Shown piece by piece: positions 12,540 through 33,903 of a DNA stretch of 33,903 bases. Origin of the DNA: Micrococcales bacterium (GTDB lineage Bacteria > Actinomycetota > Actinomycetes > Actinomycetales > Microbacteriaceae); the NCBI GenBank assembly GCA_947489235.1, contig CANLDE010000009.1:1-33903 (forward strand), read 5' to 3'. The translations under genes and the position numbers were made by a program. Below the pieces are notes generated by a model. It made no database searches. It was given only the letters and a program-made list of their open reading frames with translations, and was not told the DNA's origin. Position 1 is the first letter of the stretch, and each line of letters opens with the position of its first letter.

Positions 12540-12942
12540 CAATTCCCAGCACTCCCCCTAGAGCGTTATAAAACACATCATTCAAAGTTGCATACCGATC
12601 AGGTAAGAACATTCGCTGGGTGCCTTCGGCAAGTAGTGAAAATAAGACTGGGATTAGAGATAAAGCCCATACTCTTGCTCTTGGCCAGAACAAAACCAGG
12701 AACACTCCTAGCGGCAAATACAGGAGCACATTGGCTATGGCTTCAAGTTGGTTGTATTGAATCCAGTTGAGCCAGGAGATCGTGCTAGCAAACCTTAGAA
12801 GATCACTTGTAATAATGGCTAATAGGCCTTGACCATCGACCGGCTTAGGCCAGAGCGATGTTGCCACCAGAAGAATCAGGTAGTTCATGAGAGCGATGAG
12901 TGAAAGAGCTTTCCTCAATTTGGCCGCCTTGGTGTTTCGCAA
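12496..12942 (-). CDS. VanZ-like family membrane protein
   Basis: 148 residues, four hydrophobic segments. The VanZ-like pattern is clear: NQLEAIANVLLYLPLGVFL, then LLAEGTQRMF, LPDRYATLNDVFYNALGGVL and a basic tail. VanZ itself gives low-level teicoplanin resistance; most family members have no assigned role and act at the membrane. The start is weakly supported: TTG at 12940-12942 has no clear ribosome binding site, and a TTG at codon 9 is an alternative. A possible -10 (TATATG on this strand, 12957-12962) lies inside the spacer of the divergent leader-peptide promoter. The gene converges on and overlaps the DUF4012 gene. Confidence 0.85.
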   Translation of the reverse strand: MRNTKAAKLRKALSLIALMNYLILLVATSLWPKPVDGQGLLAIITSDLLRFASTISWLNWIQYNQLEAIANVLLYLPLGVFLVLFWPRARVWALSLIPVLFSLLAEGTQRMFLPDRYATLNDVFYNALGGVLGIVISMSIRRMRKNSK

Positions 12943-12943
12943 C

Positions 12944-12972
12944 TTGACGAAAGTTGCATATAGACCTAAAGT
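12944..12972 (+). promoter_or_regulatory. Promoter of the leader peptide (leaderless start)
   Basis: TTGACG (12944-12949), a 17-nt spacer, and TAAAGT (12967-12972). The end of the -10 is 7 nt before the ATG at 12980, so transcription should begin at or next to the A of the start codon. That makes the leader peptide mRNA leaderless. Confidence 0.6.
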
Positions 12973-12979
12973 TTATGAC

Positions 12980-13075
12980 ATGACTAACACCGCTATTTCA
13001 AACACCGTGTCGGAGGCGACCTTTGTTCGCCCTGCCATGATGAGCGTTGTTATGTGTATGCGAATGTGTCGCTAA
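12980..13075 (+). CDS. Met/Cys-rich leader peptide (putative sulfur amino acid attenuator)
   Basis: A 31-codon reading frame ending in MMSVVMCMRMCR and TAA. Seven of its last twelve residues are Met or Cys, separated by Arg and Val, and the rest is Thr/Ser/Ala-rich. It has no convincing ribosome binding site, but its ATG is 7 nt after a -10 box, as expected for a leaderless start. Known relatives in spirit are the polycysteine leaderless short ORFs of mycobacteria, where ribosome stalling at Cys codons controls the downstream gene. Here the downstream gene is a winged-helix regulator 108 nt away. Attenuation is inferred. A longer frame from 12887 in the same phase is possible but ignores the promoter. 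Confidence 0.7.
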   Translation: MTNTAISNTVSEATFVRPAMMSVVMCMRMCR

Positions 13076-13183
13076 CTCTCACAGCCGGCTAAGCCCGCTT
13101 ACAAACGAGTTACGACACCAACACCCCAGCAAAAGTCCTAATTAGGCATACCCTCCCGCATACACAATCAAAGGATTAGAAAA
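13076..13183 (+). promoter_or_regulatory. Leader region between Met/Cys peptide and winged-helix gene
   Basis: 108 nt with no gene. Two small self-complementary elements are visible: AGCCGGCT (13083-13090) and the perfect palindrome CCTAATTAGG (13137-13146). The ribosome binding site of the next gene is AAGGA (13171-13175), 8 nt before its ATG, and is followed by TTAG. The CTAAT half of the palindrome could pair with GATTAG there, offering an alternative fold that masks the site. No U-tract terminator is seen, so if this leader controls expression it is more likely by Rho or by translation. This is inference. Confidence 0.4.
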
Positions 13184-13798
13184 ATGAGCATTGCAGTAAA
13201 CCCATTTGTAAGAAAGACCCAAACAGAAACAGAAGCCCGTGGCTTCGCTCTATACGTTGGCATTGACGAATCAACTGCCAAAGCCAATGGAACATCTCTA
13301 AGCGCTATCGTTGCCGCCCTCAGGAGCACTCTTGAAGAGCTTGCTCCTGGGTTATCAGCTGAGACCTTTGCCTCTGTTGCTCTAGCTAAGGCTGGAACTG
13401 GAGGCAGAAATGTTGATGTTGTTAGAGCTGCTTTATCAGACCCTAGAGCCCTAGAGAAACTGGCTGAGAAGGAGTCAGAGAACCCTGCTAAAGGTGTAGT
13501 TATTGATCTGCAGCGTAGAAAAATATTTATTGATGGTTTGAAAGCTGAACTAACTGGCAAAGAATTCTGCTTGTTGGAATACCTAGTTCAACACCAAGGA
13601 ATCACAATTTCCAGAGATGAATTAATAAAAGCTCTTTGGGATTGCGCAGGTGGCTCAGAAGTCAACGGCAGAACCATAGACGTTCATGTTAGAAGACTAA
13701 GAGCAGGACTTATTGATAATGAGGATATTGTTCGCACAATTCGTGGTGTTGGCTATCGTTTTGACAAGCACCCGGATGTCCTGATTGAAGGCATATAA
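13184..13798 (+). CDS. Winged-helix (OmpR/PhoB-type DNA-binding domain) regulator lacking a receiver
   Basis: 204 residues. The C-terminal part (about 108-195) is a Trans_reg_C winged helix: ELTGKEFCLLEYLVQHQG, then ISRDELIKALWD, NGRTIDVHVRRLRAGL as recognition helix, and IRGVGYRF as the wing. The N-terminal ~100 residues are not a response-regulator receiver: no phospho-acceptor Asp pattern is visible, and the stretch FALYVGIDESTAKANGTSLS looks like a small alpha/beta or helical domain of its own. It should bind DNA, with an input other than phosphorylation. AAGGA lies 8 nt before the ATG. The leaderless Met/Cys leader peptide upstream suggests that it responds to sulfur amino acid supply. 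Targets are unknown. Confidence 0.88.
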   Translation: MSIAVNPFVRKTQTETEARGFALYVGIDESTAKANGTSLSAIVAALRSTLEELAPGLSAETFASVALAKAGTGGRNVDVVRAALSDPRALEKLAEKESENPAKGVVIDLQRRKIFIDGLKAELTGKEFCLLEYLVQHQGITISRDELIKALWDCAGGSEVNGRTIDVHVRRLRAGLIDNEDIVRTIRGVGYRFDKHPDVLIEGI

Positions 13799-29165: not shown

Positions 29166-32100
29166 TTAGTAAGAGTAGATCGTAACTGTTGTACCCTTAG
29201 CTGTCTTGGCCTTCGGGTCTGGTACGAGCTGGTACACAGCAGTCTTGAATCCGTTTGTCTTCAAGGCAGCTAGGTACTTCTTGGTGTTTGTCGCACGAGC
29301 AGGACCTGCAGTCACCTTGTCCTTAGCAATCAAGAAGTTATTGGTGATCTTTACGATCCCAACGGTTCCCTTGATTTTCTTTAGTCCTGCAGTGATTGCC
29401 GCGTTACCCTTGACGTTGGTCTTCTTGTCAACAGTCAAGACTCCAACCTTAGGGAATGGAATAACGATAATGTCGATCTGCTTAGGCACAATAGCTGTAA
29501 CTTTGTATTCCTGAGAAGTCTCATCTTCAGCTGTAACTGTGATTGTCAGAATGTTCTTTCCAACAACAAGTGAGTCTCCACCAGATACCTCGTAAGTTGC
29601 AACATCGCTCACTGTGGATCCATCAATCTCTGCGGAAGTTGCTCCCTTAGCAAGAGCGATAACTGATCCAACAGTAACCAAAGCTCCGTTTACAGTGAAA
29701 GTGTTTAGTCTCTTGTCCGGTGAAAGTGCAACTGGGATAACTATTGAGTAGCTACCAGCTTCTGCTGCTTCGTCACCTGGGGTAACTGTTAGAGCGATGA
29801 CGTTCTCACCTGTAACAAGTCCTGTTACGTTCCAAGTGTTAGCAGCAGCTGCCTTAGTAACAGTAGCTTCGCCACCGTCAAACTCAAGCTTGGTTCCATT
29901 GACCAGACCTACTGCAACAGCAACTGTTGGTTCAACATAGATGGTCGCTGTAGTAGTTCCATTAGCCAGAGGGGTCTGCAGTGCTGCAGTTCCATCTTCA
30001 ACTGTAAGAGTAGTTGTGTTTACCTTCACTGTCTTCAGGGTTGTGTCAGCTCCACCAACATAAACCTTGAGCTTATAAGTCTTTTCAGACTCTAGACCAG
30101 CCTGCGGTATTACCTGGATGTTGATCTCGTTGACACCTTTTTCAAGACCAAATGTGCGAGCAACAGTTGAGAGCATAGTCTTACCATTGGCAATCACATC
30201 TGATGTGTCGCTCTCAGCTTTAACCTGAATGCTAACTGATGTATCAGTCAGAGGGAGATTTACAAATCCAGTTGGGTTGTCCAATAATTCAAGATCAACA
30301 GACTCACCATTTACAAACAGTCCAGCATCAGGGTCAATGTTGTTGTTTGTGCTGATTGGAAGAACAGTCAAAGTGATTATGTATTCTTCACTATCGCCAT
30401 TAGCAGCTGTGACAGTAAGCACAAGCTCGTTTTCACCTTCAACTAACGGGGACAATCTTCCATCACCAGTCACGATGTATGAAGCAGTGGCGTCAGTAGT
30501 TGTGACCAAGACGTTTACTCTTGTAACTCCATAAGGAAGCTCAATTGCATCGTTGGTTGTTCCATCAATGCCATTGACCAAGAAAACTTCCAAGCTAGTG
30601 TCATCGCTAAGGATTACTTCCTCAACAGTGACAGTGATTTCAACCGCATCAGAAGCCTCACCATCAGCTGCAGTAACAGTCACAGTCACAGTGTTCTCAC
30701 CAGGAATAAGTTCAGCGTTACCCTCAACCACAAACGAAGCAAAAGGATCAGTAGTCACAGCAACAACAACAGCTGCACGAGTACCAGCAGGCAAAGTAAC
30801 TGCACCACCAATAGCGTCCTCACCACCAACAGTCAAAGAAGCCAAAGAAGTATCATCACTCAAAACAACTTCAGTAACAGTGACAGTAACCTCAACAACA
30901 TCAGAAGCCTCACCATCAGCTGCAGTAACAGTAACAGTCACAGTGTTCTCACCAGGAATAAGTTCAGCGTTACCCTCAACCACATAAGAAGCAAAAGGAT
31001 CAGTAGTGACAGCAACGACAGCTGCAGCACGAGTACCAGCAGGCAAGGTCACAGAACCACCAATAGCGTCCTCACCACCAACAGTCAAAGAAGCCAAAGA
31101 AGTATCATCACTTTGAGCAACGTTGAAGATCAAAAGGTATGTGCTCACTGATGTGTCTTGAGCAGTTACAGAGATCTTTACAACATTTCTTCCTGAAACT
31201 AGAGTGTCCGCTCCTACAATGGCGACAGTTGAAAGGCTAGAGGTAGCTTCGGCAGTAATTTCTACAGAAGTGACGCCGTTATCTAGATCGAATTCTTCGC
31301 CATTGCTGACATCGCTTCCGTCATACTGGAACAACGCCAAGCTGGTGTCATCACTTGCTAAAACATTTAGTGTGACGGTTGAAGTTGTGGTTGTACCATC
31401 TTCAGCTGTAACAACTACGGTTAGAGTGTTCTCGCCAAGCTGTAGTCCATTACTTCCAGTTACTGCCACAGATGCAGCAGAGTCAGAAGCCAGTGCAGTT
31501 ACAGCAACAGCTGTGGTTCCAGCTGGAATAAAGACTGTTGTTCCGTCAGTTACGCGAGCACCTGAAACTTTGAATACTACAAGTGAGCTGTTGTTTGAAG
31601 GTATCTGAACATTCAAAGTAACTTCGTAAGTTGCAGATGTTCCAGCTTGTGATGTTACAAGAACTGACAGAGTGTTTGGCCCTGCAGTAAGTCCAGTTCT
31701 ACCGGTTACTACAACTGATGAGGTTGAGTCGCTAGGGGTAGCAACTACAGTTACAGCCTCAGTGCCAGGCTCTAGGAAAATTCGTCCACCATTTCGAACA
31801 GATTGACCGTTCACTGTGAAACTTGCCAAAGCAACATCTGTTGGTAGTGACAGAACTCTTACTTTGAATGAATAAACACGGATTGTAGTTCCATCTTCTG
31901 CTGTTACCGTGACTGAAACATTGTTTACACCAGAAACTAGGTTCAACGATCCGGACACTACAGTTGTTGCGTTCACATGCGAAGTTGTAGAAAGAACTGT
32001 TACAGCAGTTGTCAATGGAGCTACTTCGACAGTTTGCCCATCGATCACAGAAACACCATTTGCCGTCAGTGCAGACAGTGTGGCATCTGTTGAGAAAATG

Positions 32101-32483
32101 TTGCTCTGCTCGGTTACGAAGACATTTACTGTGTAAGTTTGCTGATCTAAAGTGTTCGATGAAGTAACTTTGACGACAACATCATTATCTCCAGTGACAA
32201 GTCCAGTGTCACCTGTAACAGCAGCTGTAGCGGCAGGGTCGGTAGGAATTGCCACTACAGTTACTGCAGTTGTGCCAGAAGCAACAACCATGATGTCGCC
32301 ATCTTCAACGTCGCTGCCATCGATAGTAAAGGTGTCAAGGGTGGTAGTTATTCCATTAGCGTTAGCCGCAGTTACGTTCAGCCCCTGCATTGGGACAAGA
32401 ATCAATAGCGTAGCGATAATCGCTGTCATCATCTTCTTGACTGTCATGGTTTTGGCTTCCTTGTTCGTTTCTACGCGTCTCAT
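29166..32483 (-). CDS. Secreted cadherin-like beta-sandwich repeat protein with OmpA-like tail
   Basis: 1105 residues. A signal peptide (basic KK, core AIIATLLILVPMQGL, end near ANA) is followed by eleven cadherin-like modules of about 80-95 residues, each opening with a pattern like DTSLxxFxVxG and ending GxNxVxVxVTAxDG...Y. Two adjacent modules are near-identical. The last ~95 residues contain AGPARATNTKKYLAALKTNG, resembling an OmpA-type peptidoglycan-binding fold, so it may anchor the protein to the wall. The ATG at 32483 overlaps the upstream stop (TAATG); a second ATG at 32447, with AAGGA upstream, gives a more usual signal peptide and may be the true start. Probably an adhesin or surface layer component. 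Confidence 0.88.
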   Translation of the reverse strand: MRRVETNKEAKTMTVKKMMTAIIATLLILVPMQGLNVTAANANGITTTLDTFTIDGSDVEDGDIMVVASGTTAVTVVAIPTDPAATAAVTGDTGLVTGDNDVVVKVTSSNTLDQQTYTVNVFVTEQSNIFSTDATLSALTANGVSVIDGQTVEVAPLTTAVTVLSTTSHVNATTVVSGSLNLVSGVNNVSVTVTAEDGTTIRVYSFKVRVLSLPTDVALASFTVNGQSVRNGGRIFLEPGTEAVTVVATPSDSTSSVVVTGRTGLTAGPNTLSVLVTSQAGTSATYEVTLNVQIPSNNSSLVVFKVSGARVTDGTTVFIPAGTTAVAVTALASDSAASVAVTGSNGLQLGENTLTVVVTAEDGTTTTSTVTLNVLASDDTSLALFQYDGSDVSNGEEFDLDNGVTSVEITAEATSSLSTVAIVGADTLVSGRNVVKISVTAQDTSVSTYLLIFNVAQSDDTSLASLTVGGEDAIGGSVTLPAGTRAAAVVAVTTDPFASYVVEGNAELIPGENTVTVTVTAADGEASDVVEVTVTVTEVVLSDDTSLASLTVGGEDAIGGAVTLPAGTRAAVVVAVTTDPFASFVVEGNAELIPGENTVTVTVTAADGEASDAVEITVTVEEVILSDDTSLEVFLVNGIDGTTNDAIELPYGVTRVNVLVTTTDATASYIVTGDGRLSPLVEGENELVLTVTAANGDSEEYIITLTVLPISTNNNIDPDAGLFVNGESVDLELLDNPTGFVNLPLTDTSVSIQVKAESDTSDVIANGKTMLSTVARTFGLEKGVNEINIQVIPQAGLESEKTYKLKVYVGGADTTLKTVKVNTTTLTVEDGTAALQTPLANGTTTATIYVEPTVAVAVGLVNGTKLEFDGGEATVTKAAAANTWNVTGLVTGENVIALTVTPGDEAAEAGSYSIVIPVALSPDKRLNTFTVNGALVTVGSVIALAKGATSAEIDGSTVSDVATYEVSGGDSLVVGKNILTITVTAEDETSQEYKVTAIVPKQIDIIVIPFPKVGVLTVDKKTNVKGNAAITAGLKKIKGTVGIVKITNNFLIAKDKVTAGPARATNTKKYLAALKTNGFKTAVYQLVPDPKAKTAKGTTVTIYSY
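30609..31112 (-). repeat. Tandem duplication of a 252-nt module
   Basis: Two adjacent 252-nt units (30609-30860 and 30861-31112) encode two nearly identical 84-residue cadherin-like modules in the 1105-residue gene. The shared block GAGTACCAGCAGGCAA (plus-strand reading), for example, recurs exactly 252 nt apart. Differences between the units are few and mostly silent. Confidence 0.9.
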
Positions 32484-33903
32484 TATGCTTTCACCCTTAC
32501 TGTGTAAGTTTGGCTTGATCCATCGGCAGCTGTCACTGTGACGATTAGGTAGTTGAATCCTGGCTGAATGTCTCGACCTGAGATCGAAACAGACGCTCCG
32601 GCTGCGTTAGCAATAGCAGAAACGTGCAACCTGGTTGTTCCCTTTGCCACTGTGATTTTTGCCTTACCAAGAACATTGAATCCCTGGATCTTGAAGCTAC
32701 TTAGGCTCGTGTCACTTGATAGCACAGGAACAATTACGTTGATGTGATAGTCAATGAAGTCTCCGTTAGCAGCAGTAACTCGGATAATGACATCGTTGTT
32801 ACCGTCTACTAGGTTCTTGTTACCTGAATAGCGGACAGTAGCTGATGAATCAGCAGCAGTACCAATAACTTCAGCATATCTTGCACCAGCTGCTACCGTG
32901 TTATCACTGTTTACAAGGACGTTTGAGCCATTTAGGGAAATCAGTGAAAGTCCGGTGTTGTTAGACAGGGTTGCTACGTTTACTGTCACGGTGTAGATGC
33001 GTTCGGTGCTTGCGTCAGCACCGATAACAGTGATTGTAACTTGATTAGATCCAGCAACAAGTGCCTTGTTTCCAGAAACCAGCACTGTTGCACTCTGGTC
33101 CTCAGCTACGGCGATAACTGGTGTGCTCTTTGAACCCGCTGGCAAATTAACAGTCCAGTTAGATTCAGTGAGATTCAGTTTCGAACCGCCAACACTTAGA
33201 GATTCAAGTTTAACGTTTCCAGGTAGGCCACCAATTCTGAAAGTAACTGTGTACTCTCTGGTGTCCAGGCTAGGAGCGGTAACAACAATTGTGATTATGT
33301 TGTCACCGATTACTAGGTCGGTGTTTCCAGTAACTTCTACTGTCGCGTTCTCATCGACTGTGGTTACCTCAACATCAACTTCAGTAAGTTCTAGATCTAG
33401 AGACAGTACTACTCCGCCATCTAGAACTGACTCGCCACCAAGAAGAATCTCAGTAACTCCAGTTTCACTTGAAAGAACAACATTGACGGTAATGCTGTAA
33501 ACGAAGGAATCGCCATTTGCAGCAGTAACCGTAACTTCGATTGTGTTCTCTCCAGGCTGAAGGGCGTCAGCTCCAACAATATCGACTGTTGCGTTTTCAT
33601 CGGTAGCCTCAGCAACAACTTCTACAGACTCGGTGTAAGCAACAACTGTAAATACTGCGCCGTCTTGGATTGCCTGACCATTCAGTGTGAACACTGCAAG
33701 AGAAGTATCACTATTCAAGGCAACATTCAAGGTAACTGTATAAGTTGCAACAGACTCACCATCAGCAGCAGTAACAGTAACAACCAACTCGTTATCACCA
33801 GAAACAAGATCAGCGCCACCCTCAACAACAACAGTCGCAGCCTCATCAGTAGCCTCAGCAACAACCACTACAGAAGTAACACCATAAGCCAGGTTCACAG
33901 TAT
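32483..33903 (-). CDS. Cadherin-like beta-sandwich repeat protein, C-terminal part (cut by window edge)
   Basis: The frame is open at the right edge, so the N-terminus is outside the window; 473 codons are visible. It holds one partial and five complete cadherin-like modules (SLAVFTLNGQAIQDGA, ATVEVTGNTDLVIGDNIITI, LSLISLNGSNVLVNS and others) of the same kind as the next gene. It ends TVRVKA with no anchor or OmpA-like tail. A GTG at 33896-33898 could be taken for a start, but it falls inside a module and coding continues upstream. Its stop overlaps the next gene's ATG by one base, so the two are co-translated. The pair likely forms one surface structure, but this is inferred. Confidence 0.88.
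   Translation of the reverse strand, partial: TVNLAYGVTSVVVVAEATDEAATVVVEGGADLVSGDNELVVTVTAADGESVATYTVTLNVALNSDTSLAVFTLNGQAIQDGAVFTVVAYTESVEVVAEATDENATVDIVGADALQPGENTIEVTVTAANGDSFVYSITVNVVLSSETGVTEILLGGESVLDGGVVLSLDLELTEVDVEVTTVDENATVEVTGNTDLVIGDNIITIVVTAPSLDTREYTVTFRIGGLPGNVKLESLSVGGSKLNLTESNWTVNLPAGSKSTPVIAVAEDQSATVLVSGNKALVAGSNQVTITVIGADASTERIYTVTVNVATLSNNTGLSLISLNGSNVLVNSDNTVAAGARYAEVIGTAADSSATVRYSGNKNLVDGNNDVIIRVTAANGDFIDYHINVIVPVLSSDTSLSSFKIQGFNVLGKAKITVAKGTTRLHVSAIANAAGASVSISGRDIQPGFNYLIVTVTAADGSSQTYTVRVKA

Follow-up and report, generated by a model that had tools for sequence, protein, structure and literature searches.

The window, by which we mean the whole 33,903-nt stretch of DNA analysed here (Micrococcales bacterium, family Microbacteriaceae; contig CANLDE010000009.1), carries a short leader open reading frame (ORF) between a promoter and a gene for a transcriptional regulator. 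The features of this region are listed in Table 1. The leader starts at ATG 12980, continues for 30 codons and stops at TAA 13073-13075; its peptide ends in MMSVVMCMRMCR, and seven of the final twelve residues are Met or Cys. The promoter is laid out as TTGACG, 17 nt, TAAAGT, 7 nt, ATG and is recovered by a consensus promoter scan with 9 of 12 matches, a result that is weak alone (shuffle mean 0.7 per region). The reading frame stays open 5' of ATG 12980, yet this start and the promoter layout are common to the homologues. A sequence-only reading had described a 31-codon frame lying 7 nt after a -10 box, with seven Met/Cys in its last twelve residues, and both the sequence and the homologues confirm this. 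An inverted repeat, GCAACTTGACGAAAGTTGC, spans the -35 element (12939-12957) and adjoins the start of a divergent VanZ-like gene.

Table 1. Features of the leader-regulator region, in window coordinates.
Feature	Position	Strand	Basis
-35 element TTGACG	12944..12949	+	sequence, consensus scan, TTGAC placement in homologues
-10 element TAAAGT, 7 nt 5' of leader ATG (leaderless start inferred)	12967..12972	+	sequence, consensus scan
Leader ORF, 31 codons, peptide MTNTAISNTVSEATFVRPAMMSVVMCMRMCR	12980..13075	+	sequence, homologue alignment, frame-blind conservation (127/129)
P1 5' strand TGTGTATGCG, inside Met-Cys-Met-Arg codons	13053..13062	+	predicted fold, complementarity statistics
Near-invariant CGA (Arg) codon	13061..13063	+	CGA in 142/147 leaders with alignable Arg
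P2 5' strand GTGTCG-C-TAACTC, last codons and stop	13066..13078	+	predicted fold
P2 3' strand GAGTTACGACAC	13107..13118	+	predicted fold
C-rich box CACCAACACCCCAGC, first three bases also close P2	13116..13130	+	alignments; conserved in many Rhodoluna/Aquiluna loci
P3, small variable hairpin	13135..13147	+	predicted folds
P1 3' strand CGCATACACA, 3 nt 5' of Shine-Dalgarno	13157..13166	+	predicted fold, alignment
Regulator Shine-Dalgarno AAAGGA	13170..13175	+	sequence; unpaired in predicted fold
Regulator, 204 aa, C-terminal OmpR/PhoB winged helix, no receiver match	13184..13798	+	Pfam, structure model

The regulator matches the Pfam family Trans_reg_C at residues 121-193 and no other Pfam family, Response_reg included, at E-values up to 0.001, in agreement with its earlier description as a winged-helix regulator that lacks a receiver. 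In the structure model, residues 1-100 are helical without assigned strands, and a whole-model structure comparison covers residues 103-197. Homologues are present in 46 of the 67 genomes of the window genus at E up to 1e-40, and in 128 of 130 genomes (84 of 85 genera) of a family sample at E up to 1e-22. A sample of the order yielded homologues in 24 of 119 genomes from three families (f1, f6 and f7), and a scan of named genomes yielded 38 regulator loci, including those of Rhodoluna and Aquiluna (both Microbacteriaceae); the window genus is accordingly probably Rhodoluna. These proteins are often just 45-60% identical to the window copy. One draft genome has a second regulator and leader (L002, G000:C25:801-1400; 71% identical), which could be a paralogue or come from a contaminating strain; G065 likewise has two such copies. 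Two divergent regulator paralogues (L253 and L254, about 35-44% identical) have no recognised leader.

When the window genus was searched for the leader's C-terminal pattern MCMRMCR-stop with at most one mismatch, 27 of its 67 genomes matched, compared with 0 of 67 for the pattern reversed as a control, and chance is therefore not the explanation. The sequence-only reading had proposed looking for this motif upstream of the same regulator in related genomes, and that is where 28 of its 29 places lie (in one of these, G050, the contig holds just a fragment of the regulator); the remaining place, in G051, is at a contig end. Across 199 regulator loci (after dropping one duplicate and four paralogues), a motif list drawn up after leaders had been seen finds a leader before the regulator in 162, a count of loci that share ancestry and are not independent. 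By family, these are 158 of 183 loci in Microbacteriaceae, 4 of 8 in f6 and 0 of 8 in f7. The list finds no leader in 25 of the 183 Microbacteriaceae loci; five further leaders are visible by eye (L016, L017, L018, L020 and L090), and some lineages are without any leader. Four f7 loci have related peptide ends, such as MCMRCVRGR.

The typical peptide in many genera is roughly MTDNAxxLTSxEAxGxAGMMMPGxxVMCCRMC(R/A). Peptides of the window genus often end in MMxxVMCMRMCR, those of genus g13 in SMCMCMRMCR, MCMCMCMCR or MCMCMRTCL, and those of f6 in RCCRM(H/Q)A; the richness in Met and Cys persists where the core drifts (MCMCMCMCR, HMRMC). In total, the leaders contain 727 Met and 485 Cys among 4,826 residues after the start. 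The mean leader has 4.49 Met and 2.99 Cys, interleaved with Arg near the end rather than forming a pure Cys run, and three leaders (L016-L018) have many Met and one or two Cys.

The distance between promoter and start is conserved as well: of 162 leaders, 122 have a TTGAC that begins 35-38 nt 5' of the ATG, which predicts a leaderless transcript starting at that ATG. For a test that ignores the reading frame, we selected loci with TTGAC, an ATG 32-40 nt further on and CGAATG beyond it, and 129 of 204 loci qualified. ATG and CGA are in frame with no intervening stop in 127 of these 129, and in 123 of the 127 the frame closes at the fourth codon past CGA. The N-terminal part of the leader is weakly constrained (8653, 7853 and 9368 differences at codon positions 1, 2 and 3), and constraint is clearer in the last eight codons (1281, 1496 and 2076). 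Four leaders compared with NCBIfam gave no match, and three compared with Pfam gave one chance match below the cut-off. Rfam gave 0 matches in the window at gathering score and 0 in 12900-13250 at E up to 5. A literature search of open-licence papers returned no account of this leader among the matches listed.

In several genera (e.g. L180, L100 and L191), an inverted repeat TGCAAG-N3-CTTGCA overlaps the leader -10 element. We rejected this repeat as a regulon motif: in ten genomes picked for having it, the leader promoter is the sole site in nine and the tenth adds two weak matches, compared with 3 for the reversed control pattern. It is a candidate single-target operator.

The regulator itself is almost devoid of the residues in which the leader is rich. 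The 179 Microbacteriaceae regulators contain 17 Met (0.042%) and 39 Cys (0.095%) in 40,887 residues after the start, and 142 of the 179 have neither; the window copy has 2 Cys and, past its start codon, no Met. In matched segments taken from genes nearby (duplicates included), Met makes up 1.07% of kinase-like (97), 1.59% of VTT (84) and 1.47% of nitroreductase (44) segments, and Cys 0.13-0.47%. At 1.07%, about 440 Met would be expected in the regulators, compared with the 17 observed, and the depletion of Met is stronger than that of Cys. Five paralogous regulators of the window genome, two of them read in part, have 2.22% Met and 0.42% Cys. Regulators of f6 and f7 (8 genomes each) have 0.66% and 0.27% Met, respectively, and 0.05% Cys. 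Having almost no Met or Cys suits a protein that is needed when these amino acids are lacking. This feature went unseen in the sequence-only reading and lends independent support to a role in sulfur amino acid starvation.

The leader is also related to the regulator mRNA at the nucleotide level. In loci of the window genus, a conserved segment that directly precedes the Shine-Dalgarno sequence is matched in reverse complement by the leader codons TGTGTATGCGAA. We measured the longest exact complement of the leader in the regulator ribosome binding site (RBS, -40..+3) and compared it with shuffled RBS sequences. A complement of at least 8 nt is found at 20 of 33 loci of the window genus (shuffles: mean 1.2, max 4) and at 59 of 129 other loci (mean 9.6, max 20). 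Two control windows in the other loci are near chance at 8 nt, with 9 of 117 (mean 5.9, max 9) and 3 of 129 (mean 4.0, max 8). At 7 nt or more, the counts are 27 of 33 (shuffle mean 5.0) and 78 of 129 (27.2). At this length, the count for the control window at -100..-57 (39 of 117) lies above every shuffle too (mean 19.4, max 25), and pairing is therefore not confined to the RBS; a coding control is not above its shuffles (10 of 129; 15.3). When the core alone is compared with the whole spacer at 8 nt, 17 of 33 window-genus loci (1.1) and 35 of 129 others (5.7) score, compared with 2 and 1 of 33 and 11 and 8 of 129 (8.5 and 6.3) for other leader windows.

The codons that pair differ between clades. 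Duplexes of at least 7 nt include Cys codons in 23 of 27 cases in the window genus; elsewhere they include Met runs in 47 of 78 and Cys codons in 22 of 78. CATCATC, the complement of a Met run, lies within -30..+3 of the regulator start at 49 of 106 non-Rhodoluna loci with MM and is found 0 times in two control windows. To look for covariation, we ranked all cores against each spacer: the core of the locus itself falls in the top 10% at 15 of 33 loci of the window genus (3.3 expected), at 3 of 8 Aquiluna-type loci and at 2 of 4 f6 loci. This preference is at chance in the remaining loci (13 of 117; 11.7 expected), which do score against shuffled cores (23 of 117 at the 5% level; 5.9 expected).

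The core Arg codon is nearly always CGA (Table 1), although CGA makes up 12% of the Arg codons in the regulator genes of these loci in the window genus and 4.5% in the rest; the Arg that follows it is encoded by CGC in 68 of 69 leaders. Outside the window genus, core Cys is mostly TGT (75 of 95 and 94 of 117 at two positions before CGA), compared with 2 of 20 Cys codons (0.1) in the regulators. The bias towards CGA and TGT relative to the regulator genes therefore indicates a constraint at the nucleotide level. Nucleotide conservation is strong around CGAATG, and Cys is replaced by His in 6 of 121 leaders at one position. Sensing of Arg was considered and rejected, because the following Arg is CGC in nearly every leader and CGA lies within the pairing core. 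CGA is read by tRNA-Arg through inosine, which is made by TadA. A tadA-like frame was seen by eye near the leader in L113; a link between TadA and CGA was rejected, since this adjacency occurs in a single locus and was read by eye. Also by eye, several high-GC loci (L098 and L274 among them) have an upp-like gene 5' of the leader.

The window RNA from the core to the RBS is predicted to fold into three helices, P1, P2 and P3 (z = -4.42; 0 of 200 shuffles as good). In this fold, both the Shine-Dalgarno sequence and the AUG are unpaired, with P1 stopping 3 nt short of the former. When eight chosen Rhodoluna/Aquiluna-type sequences were folded one at a time, seven gave the same plan and the eighth, L113, a shifted form of it. 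RNAalifold gave a weak consensus (-4.4) for a joint Rhodoluna/Aquiluna alignment of 35 sequences, probably because the spacers misalign, and single-sequence folds with z-scores were used instead: z is below -2 at 28 of 33 window-genus loci and 67 of 126 others. The conserved CACCAACACCCC box (13116-13130) of Rhodoluna/Aquiluna is mostly single-stranded and in many loci is followed by a GCACGTGATTCGTGC-like hairpin. The box is more conserved than pairing alone needs; it is possibly a protein, Rho or ligand site.

Two folding tests addressed access to the RBS. The first (-14..+3, every usable locus) showed no advantage for stalling of a ribosome at the core: values were 0.607 (free) and 0.592 (stalled) at 29 window-genus loci, and 0.455 (free), 0.486 (stalled) and 0.483 (ribosome ten codons earlier) at 101 others. 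The second (-25..+5) was restricted to loci with an 8-nt complement, a choice that is partly circular, and in it the RBS opens at 18 of 20 window-genus loci when a ribosome occupies the pairing codons. At Met-run loci it opens in 15 of 33 and closes in 1; opening is not significant at the 12 Cys-pairing loci outside the window genus.

We consider it quite probable that the leader is a leaderless translational attenuator that responds to sulfur amino acid supply and precedes a sulfur-free transcription factor. When Met- and Cys-tRNA are sufficient, ribosomes would complete the leader and depart, and the freed leader codons would pair beside or over the Shine-Dalgarno sequence and start of the regulator, keeping its translation low. 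When these tRNAs are short, a ribosome would wait on the Met/Cys codons, pairing would be blocked and the regulator would be made. The regulator, being without Met or Cys, would place little demand on the scarce residues apart from its initiator, and would then govern a sulfur-starvation regulon. That starvation turns the switch on rather than off is inferred from the Met/Cys depletion of the regulator together with the mycobacterial model described below. The earlier suggestion that a leaderless Met/Cys leader controls the regulator gains support from its conserved promoter-ATG spacing, frame, Met/Cys richness and position, and from the complementarity between codons and RBS, with one folding test negative and one positive but partly circular. 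The relative weight of Met and Cys as the signal may differ by clade. For the broader proposal of a family-wide sulfur-starvation switch in Microbacteriaceae, in which the leader reads both Met and Cys and activates a transcription factor evolutionarily stripped of both, we lean slightly towards acceptance.

The same Met/Cys signal could act on transcription instead, with the spacer serving as a Rho-dependent terminator and leader translation or P1/P2/P3 controlling access of Rho. The sense strand of the spacer is C-rich and G-poor (C.359 and G.159 in the window genus,.415 and.239 in the rest, compared with.243 and.281, and.335 and.315, respectively, 5' of the promoter), but base composition by itself is weak evidence. 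A simple scan of the + strand at 12850-13300 found no terminator-like site, P1 leaves the window Shine-Dalgarno sequence free, and Rho has been proposed for actinobacterial cys leaders in the excerpted text of PMC1262725. Complementary sites are richest at the regulator RBS, however, which points to translation, and we regard the Rho model as possible but rather unlikely.

These codons might instead report a different stress, be it a metal (copper) or an oxidant that acts on the nascent peptide with its many Met and Cys, or translation stress that slows the reading of CGA, as in whiB7. CGA decoding requires inosine in tRNA-Arg, and the codon is near-invariant in the leaders though rare in the regulator genes; the tadA-like frame near the L113 leader, seen by eye, would fit as well. 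CGA sits within the pairing core, however, so RNA pairing can explain it. The occasional exchange of Cys for His is compatible with a metal or oxidant signal, and a regulator without Met or Cys would resist oxidation too, but this depletion is more simply explained by scarcity, and the L016-L018 leaders, with their one or two Cys, speak against this explanation, which we judge improbable. We give very little credence to the idea that an RNA structure or a DNA operator is what is conserved here, with the ORF being incidental. The strong conservation around CGAATG, the significant folds, the conserved CACCAACACCCC box and the weak coding constraint of the N-terminal part are consistent with it; against it stand the near-complete retention of the frame with an ATG at a fixed distance from the -35 element, the fixed position of the stop in nearly all of these loci, the Met/Cys richness that is retained as the core drifts, and the lack of Rfam matches in the searches given above.

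Translational attenuation of this kind has a precedent in mycobacteria, in which Canestrari et al. (in 2020) reportedly described leaderless polycysteine short ORFs where ribosome speed on Cys codons is coupled to translation of the next gene. The window leader is similar in being a short ORF, predicted to be leaderless, with sulfur amino acid codons that are able to pair with the RBS region. In contrast to the mycobacterial ORFs, it has Met besides Cys codons, the next gene encodes a Trans_reg_C transcription factor rather than a protein of sulfur metabolism, the duplex codons vary by clade, and the regulator is nearly free of Met and Cys. The sequence-only reading had noted the resemblance, along with the Met-Cys mixture and the transcription factor downstream, and the comparative tests bear it out.

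Control of downstream genes by Cys codons in M. smegmatis is cited in excerpts of PMC9031893 and PMC13236596, and a leaderless Cys-rich upstream ORF (uORF) before cysA2 appears in an excerpt of PMC4633059. Cys-run leader peptides before cys operons were predicted in Actinobacteria in 2005, with Rho suggested (PMC1262725, excerpted text). As excerpted there, the cys/cbs leaders of Mycobacterium, P. acnes and B. longum are likewise short ORFs with Cys codons near the stop and no conserved terminator hairpin; they precede cysteine pathway genes, whereas the window leader precedes a regulator and has leader-RBS complementarity. The whiB7/wblC uORF, in the excerpted text of PMC13236596, is also an actinobacterial uORF that controls a transcription factor through ribosome stalling; it differs in being treated there as transcription attenuation and tested with a drug (CLR), whereas here the ORF is Met/Cys-rich and the scan found no terminator-like site. 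GlnR, an orphan OmpR-family regulator, differs from the window regulator, whose N-terminal 90-100 residues are without a Pfam receiver match.

If the attenuator reading is correct, the regulator would be a candidate for master control of the response to sulfur amino acid starvation across Microbacteriaceae, in reduced freshwater plankton as well as in relatives with larger genomes. Leaderless attenuation, described for pathway operons and for Cys, would extend to a transcription factor and to Met and Cys together, and the regulator would be a clear case of sulfur sparing within a regulator itself: sulfur-rich sensor and sulfur-free response protein would both have been shaped by the element that they govern. 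The way in which the pairing codons change from clade to clade (Met run, Cys-Arg, Cys-Met-Arg) would be a natural experiment in attenuator evolution.

Elsewhere in the window, two adjoining large ORFs on the - strand (29166-33898) contain repeats that look beta-sandwich-like by eye and probably encode cell-surface proteins.
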